From NCBI RefSeq assembly GCF_037031225.1, contig NZ_JAYEZN010000001.1, positions 2,232,001-2,296,000 of the forward strand: DNA of 64,000 nucleotides. Direction: 5' to 3'. The stretch comes from Halorientalis sp. LT38 (GTDB taxonomy: Archaea > Halobacteriota > Halobacteria > Halobacteriales > Haloarculaceae). Positions 19,178-22,216 of this stretch are shown one piece after another. The notes below the pieces were generated by a model. The model was not told the origin of the DNA, did not search any database, and worked only from the letters and a program-made list of their open reading frames with translations. Within the stretch, counting starts at the first letter, position 1. The number at the start of each line of letters is the position of its first letter. A program made the position numbers and the translations under genes.

Positions 19178-20797
19178 TCAGCGGTTGCGGCCCAGTTCCT
19201 CGTGGCTGGTCACCCAGTCCGAGGCCGAGATGGCCGACGCCAGCGAGAGCTCGCCGGCGAGGACGACGCCGGCGGCGATCTCGGCGAACTTGTTGACGTT
19301 GCCAGCGCCGTCACAGTCCAGCATCTGGAGGGCCTCGTTCTGGGTCGGCAGGCCGGTCCCGCCGCCGTAGGTGGCGACGATGAGCGAGGGGATGGTCACC
19401 GAGACGTGGACCGAGTTGTCGTCGAGCAGGGTCGCGTTGACCAGCGCGGCCGAGGACTCGGCGACGTTGGCCTCGTCCTGGCCCGTGGCGATGAAAAGCG
19501 CTGCCAGCCCGTTGGCCGGGTGCGCGCCGTTCGTGTTGGTCCCCGCCAGCATCGACCCGATGTTGGCGACCTCGCCGTGGTGGACCAGGCTCTCGGGGTC
19601 GGCGCCGAGGTGGTGGGTGAACACCTCCTCCGGAATCGTGGCCTCGGCGGTCACCCGCTTGCCGCGGGTCATCATGTCGTTGACCTGCGAGTGTTTCTTG
19701 TCCGTCGCGAAGTTCCCCTCCAGGTAGAAGTTCTCGACGTAGCCGGGGAACTCGTTGAGGATCCAGTTGCAGGCCGCGAACGTGGCCTTCCCGACCATGT
19801 TCTGCCCGGCGGCGTCCCCCGTTTTAAAGTCGAAGCGGAGGAAGGCGTAGTTGTTGGTGAGGTAGTCTTCGATTTCGACCAGTTCGGCGACGCTCGAGGT
19901 CTCCTCGGCTTTCTCCCTGATGGTGTCGTAGTGGTCGAACACCCAGTCACGGAAGTCCCGGGCGGTCCGGGCGTCCTCGAAGACGAAGACCGGCGCGCGG
20001 TTCATCCGGTCGTCGACGACGGTCGCCTTCACGCCGCCGGACAGATTCAGCGCCTTCATCCCGCGGCTGTAGGAGGCCACGAGCGTCCCCTCCGTGGTGG
20101 CGAGCGGGATCGGGTACTCGCCGTCGGCGTGTTCGCCCTCGACCCTGAGCGGCCCGGCGAGCCCCATCGGCATCTGCGCGACGCCGACGAAGTTCTCGAT
20201 GTTGCCCTCCAGTCCCTCCGGATCGATCGAGTACTCCGTGACGTGGTCGAGTTCCGTGTCCGTCTCCTCGGCGAGGAACTCGTGGCGCTCGGCGATGGCC
20301 TCCTCGCTGTAGTTGTCGGCCTCGTCGCGCGGGACGCTCGTGACCGTCTCCTCGTCCCGGATCGCGTCGGTGACCGACAGCGAGAGCGACCCGAAGGGCG
20401 GGGCCAGGAAGTCGATCTCGATGTCGTGATCGCCGGTCGGGAGGTCCAGCCCCGCAACGGTGACGTACACCGTCCGGCCGACCGGGAAGCCGATCGGATC
20501 CGTCTCGTCGATCTCCGTCAGTTCGTAGCTGTCTCCCTCGGAGGTCTCCAGTGTCACGTCGCTCGGCAGGACCTCGTCGCCGTTGATCTCGAGGCGCTCG
20601 ACGCCCGCGAACTCGGCGTCCTGCAACCTGTTTTTGACCTCGAAGCGGACCCCCTCGTCGGTGTTCTGGAGGCTCCCGTACGTGTAGAGACGCTTGAGCA
20701 CCTTCTCCGGGACGTCCAGCGAGACGATCCCGTTGCCCCCGACGAGGTTCGCGTACAGCCTGTTCAGTATGCCGCTGTCCGGTTTCGGGACGACCAT
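19178..20797 (-). CDS. HMG-CoA reductase-family enzyme with an extra N-terminal beta domain
   Basis: The C-terminal part (about 160-539) is HMG-CoA reductase of the class I type: ENFVGVAQMPMGLAGPL, ATTEGTLVASYSRG with Glu236, TDKKHSQVN with Lys367, GQDEANVAESS with Asp441, and the C-terminal His532. These are the four catalytic residues of the family. Residues about 35-145 form an added domain (YGSLQNTDEGVRFEVKNRL ... VAGLDLPTGDHDIEIDF). It resembles the DUF6379 domain of C-glycoside deglycosidase beta subunits, going by pattern memory only. Typical haloarchaeal HmgA is about 400 residues and lacks this domain. The likely core reaction is NADPH reduction of HMG-CoA to mevalonate or a related thioester. 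I chose the ATG at 20797 because a TATA element lies inside the longer alternative reading frame. Confidence 0.82.
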   Translation of the reverse strand: MVVPKPDSGILNRLYANLVGGNGIVSLDVPEKVLKRLYTYGSLQNTDEGVRFEVKNRLQDAEFAGVERLEINGDEVLPSDVTLETSEGDSYELTEIDETDPIGFPVGRTVYVTVAGLDLPTGDHDIEIDFLAPPFGSLSLSVTDAIRDEETVTSVPRDEADNYSEEAIAERHEFLAEETDTELDHVTEYSIDPEGLEGNIENFVGVAQMPMGLAGPLRVEGEHADGEYPIPLATTEGTLVASYSRGMKALNLSGGVKATVVDDRMNRAPVFVFEDARTARDFRDWVFDHYDTIREKAEETSSVAELVEIEDYLTNNYAFLRFDFKTGDAAGQNMVGKATFAACNWILNEFPGYVENFYLEGNFATDKKHSQVNDMMTRGKRVTAEATIPEEVFTHHLGADPESLVHHGEVANIGSMLAGTNTNGAHPANGLAALFIATGQDEANVAESSAALVNATLLDDNSVHVSVTIPSLIVATYGGGTGLPTQNEALQMLDCDGAGNVNKFAEIAAGVVLAGELSLASAISASDWVTSHEELGRNR

Positions 20798-20911: not shown

Positions 20912-22216
20912 GTGGCCGACGCGCCCGGCCCGGCGGGCCTGGAACCAGTGGGCAACCGATCCGACACGACCGATATCCGTCCGGCGAGCGAACGGGTGGT
21001 CGTGCGAACGCTCGAGACGCTCGTTCGGGACGCACGTCGAAACGCGGCCCTGGCGTGGGTCGCCGTCGTCCTTCTGGTCGTCGCGGCGGGCTGGAGTCTC
21101 GTCGGGGGCGACCTCCTCTGGGGCGGGTTCGCCCTCACGGGCGCGCTCGTCGCGGTGGCCCCGGCCGTCTGGACGCGGGACCCGGAGCGGATGCTCCCAG
21201 CGGAGATCCTCGCCGTCTTGACCGCGGTCGTGGTCGCCCGTGTCGCCGGGGTGGCCATCTCGTTCGCGGGCTACAGCGCGACGGCGGCGCTGGCGCTCGT
21301 CCTCGCCGTCGAGATCGACGTGTTCACCGACGTGGAGCTGACCGGCTGGTTCAGCGTCCCCTTCGTCACCGTCACGACCGCGGCGCTGGCGGCCGTCTGG
21401 GGCGTGCTGGAGTACGCCTCGGACCTGTTCCTCGGCACGCGGTACCTGACCGACACGGCCGACCTGATGTGGGATCTGGTCCTCGCGTCGGCGGTCGGCG
21501 TCCTCGCCGGCCTGCTCTTCTGGGGGTACGTCCGCCGGTACCACCGCGTCGCGGACGGCGCCGACCGCGACCGGACGACGCCACCGGACCGCGACCCGCA
21601 CTCACTCGCCGACTCGCGACTGCGCTACCCCGTCCGGGCGATGCAGGCCGTCCTCGTCCTCGTCGTCGTGGGCGGGCTGGTCACCGCCCGGGGCGGCCTC
21701 GTGTTCAACGCCGGCATGGGGCTGGTCGTCGCGCTGGTACCGGATCTGGTGCGCTGGCGCTACGGCCGCCCGCTCTCGGCCGGACTCGCGCTCTGGCTCA
21801 CGGTCGCCGGGTTCCTCCACGGCGTCGGCGCGCTCGGCATCTACGAGACGGTCGGCTGGTACGACCAGCTGACTCACGTCGTCTCCGCGTCGCTGGTCGC
21901 CGGCCTCGGCTACGCGACCGTCCAGGCGCTCGACCGCTACTCGCCGTCCGTCTCCCTCCCCACGTGGTTCCGCGTCTGCTGTACCGTCCTGTTCGTGCTG
22001 GCCTTCGGCGTGCTCTGGGAGGTCATGGAGTTCGCGACCGGCGGGCTCTCGGCGGTGCTCGGCGGCGAGGCGCTGCTGGCCCAGTACGGACTCCGTGACG
22101 TCGTTCTGGACCTCGCCTTCGACGGTCTCGGGGGGCTCGCCGTCGCGCTGTGGGCCACCCGCTACTTCGACGGCGTGTCGACGTTCCTGACGCGCCGGCT
22201 CCGGGCTGGCGACTGA
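20912..22216 (+). CDS. Polytopic membrane protein, YjdF (DUF2238)-like
   Basis: A 434-residue protein with about ten transmembrane helices in two blocks. A hydrophilic linker (about residues 205-235, rich in R, D and P) separates them. The second block carries the YjdF-like pattern GWYDQLTHVVSASLVAGLGY ... GVLWEVMEFATGG ... DVVLDLAFDGLGG with conserved acidic and His residues in membrane helices. The function of this family is unknown to me. A GTG start at 20912 is supported by the TATA box, and the first roughly 35 residues are a soluble tail. Confidence 0.7.
   Translation: MADAPGPAGLEPVGNRSDTTDIRPASERVVVRTLETLVRDARRNAALAWVAVVLLVVAAGWSLVGGDLLWGGFALTGALVAVAPAVWTRDPERMLPAEILAVLTAVVVARVAGVAISFAGYSATAALALVLAVEIDVFTDVELTGWFSVPFVTVTTAALAAVWGVLEYASDLFLGTRYLTDTADLMWDLVLASAVGVLAGLLFWGYVRRYHRVADGADRDRTTPPDRDPHSLADSRLRYPVRAMQAVLVLVVVGGLVTARGGLVFNAGMGLVVALVPDLVRWRYGRPLSAGLALWLTVAGFLHGVGALGIYETVGWYDQLTHVVSASLVAGLGYATVQALDRYSPSVSLPTWFRVCCTVLFVLAFGVLWEVMEFATGGLSAVLGGEALLAQYGLRDVVLDLAFDGLGGLAVALWATRYFDGVSTFLTRRLRAGD

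Follow-up and report, generated by a model that had tools for sequence, protein, structure and literature searches.

An HMG-CoA reductase-like protein of Halorientalis sp. LT38 as a probable FcrA-type fatty acyl-CoA reductase, and the likely fold of its N-terminal domain

What could be the role of a protein that keeps the catalytic residues of HMG-CoA reductase (HMGR) and carries an additional domain in front of its core? The question is raised by a 539-residue protein encoded in the window, a 64,000-nucleotide stretch (contig NZ_JAYEZN010000001.1, positions 2,232,001 to 2,296,000) of the 3.58 Mb, 99.97% complete genome of the haloarchaeon Halorientalis sp. LT38. An earlier note on this DNA had suggested either a regulated second HMGR or an enzyme for another acyl-CoA linked to glycosides. 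Here, we argue that the protein is almost certainly an ortholog of FcrA, an enzyme already known, and not a new kind of reductase.

Gene, domains and distribution

The gene lies on the minus strand, on which the earlier note was silent; its coordinates were exact. The gene, its neighbours and the regions of its product are as follows.

19178..20797 (-): fcrA-type gene, 539 aa, monocistronic; ATG at 20797, stop codon at 19180-19178
20912-22216 (+): gene for a multi-pass membrane protein, divergent and upstream of fcrA; no Pfam match
downstream of fcrA, convergent: SDR gene
20702..20797 (-): residues 1-32, conserved leader with an amphipathic helix (residues 10-19), outside the Pfam domain
20357..20701 (-): residues 33-147, N-terminal domain "Lad" (PF25653), predicted CGD beta-subunit/DUF6379 fold
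20300..20356 (-): residues 148-166, interdomain linker, the low-confidence end of the AlphaFold2 model; an unstructured linker is described in PMC11948995
19187..20299 (-): residues 167-537, class I HMGR-like catalytic core (PF00368)

In a Pfam search, HMG-CoA_red (PF00368) matches residues 167-537 with 420 bits, and the core matches the structure 6hr7 with E=7.5e-82. Since HMG-CoA_red_N (PF25653) matches residues 33-147 with 133 bits, the extra domain is already named in Pfam; that a separate domain precedes the core, as had been proposed, is borne out by this match and by the structure model described below. The domain is missing from all 19 canonical haloarchaeal HMGRs of our tree set, most of which have open frames of 411-497 aa. 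In a phylum-wide sample of 393 genomes, PF25653 occurs in only two; in the family it occurs in 29 of 146 genomes, and 27 of those 29 have the full fusion. The canonical HMGRs of these genomes lack the domain. As a result, the domain is neither universal nor a simple haloarchaeal extension of HMGR, and we rejected such a general extension on this distribution. No copies of the N-terminal domain were found on plasmids.

Comparison of neighbourhoods shows that the surroundings of fcrA are kept within Halorientalis only and not in other genera. Apart from the generic SDR, none of the neighbours is obviously connected with the chemistry of lipids or sugars. An operon or a conserved partner was considered and rejected: the gene is monocistronic, and its neighbours resemble unrelated housekeeping genes conserved inside Halorientalis only. 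The membrane-protein gene at 20912-22216 (+) adjoins fcrA in part of Halorientalis only.

Active site and relation to FcrA

FcrA was described as a secondary HMGR of Halobacteriales with an added N-terminal domain, named Lad, that acts as a fatty acyl-CoA reductase and also occurs in bacteria (Grossi et al., ISME J 2025, PMC11948995). The purified-enzyme activity reported there is that of a Chloroflexota homolog and not of a haloarchaeal FcrA: Pb-FcrA of Ca. Promineifilum breve, which has the same architecture, used NADPH and acyl-CoA of C14 and longer, did not reduce HMG-CoA and was not inhibited by a statin (simvastatin). In the FcrA of Natronomonas pharaonis, three pocket residues are substituted, namely Ser684 by Glu360, a lysine (printed Lys795) by Gly411 and Leu862 by Trp528 (PMC11948995). 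The corresponding residues of the Halorientalis protein are listed here, together with its catalytic ones.

20090..20092 (-): catalytic Glu236 (human Glu559)
19697..19699 (-): catalytic Lys367 (human Lys691)
19475..19477 (-): catalytic Asp441 (human Asp767)
19202..19204 (-): catalytic His532 (human His866)
19718..19720 (-): Glu360, FcrA signature in place of human Ser684
19565..19567 (-): Ala411, FcrA signature, the HMG-carboxylate-binding lysine being lost
19214..19216 (-): Trp528, FcrA signature in place of human Leu862

The four catalytic residues, which the earlier note had numbered correctly, are invariant across all aligned relatives. The three pocket positions split the 30 Lad-FcrA rows from the 19 canonical rows of the alignment perfectly. 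Position 360 is Glu or Asp in 30/30 Lad-FcrA rows and Ser in 19/19 canonical HMGRs; the lysine of the canonical RKN motif is present in all 19 canonical rows and in no FcrA row; and position 528 is Trp in 30/30 Lad-FcrA rows, Leu in all canonical rows and Phe in two bacterial relatives, which have an acid and no lysine at the other two positions. The lysine printed as Lys795 in the published description is presumably Lys735 in human numbering. The window protein shares the core fold and the catalytic E/K/D/H with class I HMGR (canonical haloarchaeal HmgA, 6hr7 and human HMGR), but its HMG-binding Ser, Lys and C-terminal-helix Leu are replaced, it has GDAxGQN where class I has GDAMGMN, and it carries the N-terminal domain that class I lacks. 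Its score against the NCBIfam model of HMG-CoA reductase (TIGR00533) is 342.6 bits, below the cut-off of 441.8 bits.

With the published FcrA of N. pharaonis and Ca. Promineifilum breve, on the other hand, the protein shares Lad, linker and HMGR-like core, the catalytic numbering and the three pocket substitutions, and its catalytic and pocket positions are identical in number to those given for N. pharaonis FcrA, which belongs to the same haloarchaeal clade (PMC11948995). It differs in having Ala instead of Gly at residue 411 and in a host without WS/DGAT. Full-length identity to orthologs of the Haloarculaceae is 72-92% (76% to the protein of genome G502), the nearest relatives being those of Halorientalis persicus, pallida and regularis (90-92%). 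In a maximum-likelihood tree, in which the bootstrap is not fully settled, long branches make the deep order rough and the characterised Pb-FcrA is not included, the Lad-FcrA rows form one clade with support 100/99, which is joined, again with 100/99, by two bacterial FcrA-like proteins and stands apart from the 19 canonical haloarchaeal HMGRs. A canonical HMGR paralog was ruled out by the signature residues and the tree position.

Could the protein nevertheless be a second, regulated HMGR for isoprenoid synthesis, with the extra domain as a regulatory sensor? The four catalytic residues and the entire core are retained, and additional domains on HMGR can be regulatory. We found no sign of such a role and regard it as very improbable. 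An acid stands in place of the HMG-binding Ser684, the carboxylate-binding lysine is replaced as well, the protein falls outside the canonical clade, and the homolog tested in vitro does not reduce HMG-CoA. Moreover, the genome already has a normal HMGR at C1:2764006-2765124, the sole other HMGR there and the separate canonical hmgA for which the earlier note had proposed to look; a canonical HMGR is also present in each fcrA genome tested.

Taken together, these observations very probably identify the protein as FcrA, a soluble NADPH-dependent acyl-CoA reductase with a pocket for an alkyl chain and a Lad domain that likely grips the chain or hands it over; that the Halorientalis protein has the same fatty acyl-CoA reductase activity is suggested by analogy with the characterised homolog. 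The HMGR-type core would carry out a four-electron reduction of a long-chain acyl-CoA to a primary fatty alcohol and CoA, using the E/K/D/H machinery common to HMGR. Since the residues that bind the carboxylate of HMG are replaced (Ser by Glu360, Lys by Ala411) and Leu is changed to Trp528, the pocket would accept an unbranched alkyl chain and not HMG. The substrates could be supplied by AMP-binding acyl-CoA ligase-type proteins, for which the genome has 22 matches over the cut-off.

We would also like to point out that a core-only FcrA-like protein is encoded in a metagenome-assembled genome of Saprospiraceae (L015:383-10474), in a possible lipid gene cluster. Its neighbours, named by eye from the sequence, resemble UbiA, PEP-synthase-like, DUF3419/BtaA-like, dolichol-kinase-like, SRPBCC and AMP-ligase proteins. 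A literature search found nothing on BtaA/UbiA neighbours of the bacterial relative.

Fold and possible role of the Lad domain

The AlphaFold2 model of the N-terminal domain, built with 30 natural sequences, is all-beta and confident over about residues 40-150, where the mean pLDDT of successive blocks is about 80-92, suggesting that the domain folds alone. When the domain is modelled in this way, residues 1-32 have low confidence. This leader, MV(V/I)PxPDSGILxRxYANLVG, is among the most conserved parts of FcrA.

The earlier note had proposed a DUF6379/C-glycoside deglycosidase (CGD) beta-subunit fold, and our searches agree with it. In a Foldseek search of the model against the PDB, C-glycoside deglycosidases take all of ranks 1-17 (E from 4e-6 to 2e-4); they are beta-subunit chains except for the last two, with TM to target up to 0.71. 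A profile of the family searched against PDB sequences finds DgpB1 first (E=1.2e-4), followed by two DUF6379 chains (E=0.07). The Pfam family CGDB (PF19906) matches 26 of 30 Lad-family members, with a best E of 6e-6; the window protein reaches 13.9 bits against a gathering score of 27.6. These comparisons of model and sequence support the assignment of the CGD-beta (CGDB/DUF6379) fold to Lad, which is not mentioned in the main text of PMC11948995. The predicted Lad domain thus shares its fold and a weak but consistent sequence similarity (about 13-18% identity) with the CGD beta subunit (CGDB PF19906, DUF6379; DgpB, AgCarB2, 8qvc, 9m3b). The beta subunit pairs with a TIM-barrel alpha subunit; Lad is fused to a reductase instead.

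How this fold may serve a reductase is suggested by two published observations. In C-glycoside deglycosidase, the beta subunit helps to bind the substrate and has a lid that shifts toward the active site (PMC12141560), and Lad has been proposed to hold the long alkyl chain (PMC11948995). Together with the CGD-beta fold, they suggest that Lad is a substrate-gripping or handover domain; the suggestion draws on fold similarity (TM 0.5-0.7) and the published AlphaFold3 pocket. Most likely, Lad would grip or pass on the hydrophobic chain where the active site opens, much as the CGD beta subunit binds substrate and covers the cavity of its partner.

The same fold could be read differently, as a sugar-binding relative of CGD beta in an acyl-CoA reductase for glycoside-linked acyl groups. 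We give this reading hardly any credence. The neighbourhood holds no CGD alpha subunit and no sugar or sugar-cleaving genes, the core bears a fatty-acyl signature, and Lad also occurs joined to a winged helix, so that its fold has no fixed link with sugars. Of the earlier suggestion, the other acyl-CoA stands, supported by the fatty-acyl signature and the FcrA clade, and the glycosides do not.

The winged-helix relative is a further Lad protein; it is about 285 aa long, lacks the HMGR core and is encoded by 18 of the 27 genomes with fcrA, as well as by two others of the family. None was found in the genome of LT38; an example is given here.

L150:5504-6364 (-): Lad-winged-helix protein; also in L141-L155

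It consists of a Lad domain of predicted CGD-beta fold, linker helices and a C-terminus matching the winged-helix families TrmB and MarR. In searches with its model, CGD-beta matches come first, and TrmBL2 and MarR-type matches further down. The layout suggests that it may be a transcription regulator sensing the same ligand as the Lad of FcrA, alkyl or acyl. The conserved residues 1-32 of FcrA are missing from these proteins.

WS/DGAT and a candidate acyltransferase in Halorientalis

In the published survey, fcrA is almost exclusively found in genomes with WS/DGAT, and Halorientalis appears in one reference only (PMC11948995). Outside Halorientalis, 12/12 fcrA genomes tested have a WS/DGAT over the TIGR02946 cut-off; within the genus, 0/5 fcrA genomes have one. 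G502, whose fcrA ortholog was compared above, carries an NH-type WS/DGAT. That the enzyme was overlooked by a strict model was ruled out by using a WS/DGAT protein itself as the query, which gave no match in 8/8 Halorientalis genomes, that of LT38 among them. A weak PF03007 match in this genome (49.5 bits against a cut-off of 309.95) was rejected as WS/DGAT, being a PapA/condensation-type protein. As WS/DGAT is absent, the physiological product in Halorientalis could differ.

The strongest candidate left is an acyltransferase of 429-439 aa with similarity to PapA/condensation enzymes and an NHxxxDG motif. Members of the family, whose motif is (N/S)HxxxDG and which occur in Halorientalis and other fcrA genomes, include the following.

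G000 C1:918293-919579 = L045:1384-2700 (+): PapA/condensation-type acyltransferase of the LT38 genome
L082:5908-7248 (-): member of the PapA/condensation-type acyltransferase family
L076:10409-11770 (+): PapA/condensation-type acyltransferase of genome G462, divergently adjoining fcrA

The protein is FcrA by fold and clade, and it is conceivable, though we consider it unlikely, that its acyl specificity or the destination of its product has drifted in Halorientalis, toward an alkyl ester or an ether lipid whose synthesis bypasses WS/DGAT and may use this acyltransferase. This would be a refinement of the FcrA assignment more than a contradiction of it. Besides the distribution of WS/DGAT and the scant mention of the genus, it is favoured by the presence of the acyltransferase in 5/5 fcrA genomes of Halorientalis (82-84% identical to the LT38 copy in three, 58% in G462), by its position beside fcrA in G462, and by its co-occurrence with fcrA at 15/18 against 27/146 (Fisher p=1e-10, with no phylogenetic correction). 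Against it, many fcrA genomes outside Halorientalis have the acyltransferase too, and it is present in genomes with WS/DGAT; it occurs without fcrA in three genomes, two of them Halorientalis; in most Halorientalis, including those two, it has a constant location elsewhere, unconnected with fcrA; and its adjacency to fcrA was seen once. That the acyltransferase replaces WS/DGAT and esterifies the fatty alcohol of Halorientalis is, accordingly, a tentative proposal to which we give rather low odds.

For FcrA as assigned here, the annotation is to be corrected: the second "HMG-CoA reductases" of haloarchaea, a wrong label that is widespread, would yield fatty alcohols and not mevalonate. The link between Lad and the CGD beta fold is new and gives a concrete model of a substrate-gripping lid, and the Lad-winged-helix family is new as well. 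Also new is Halorientalis as a genus with the reductase but without the usual wax synthase, and with a candidate acyltransferase; if the proposed esterification is true, it would be a second, unrecognised archaeal route to wax-like esters.
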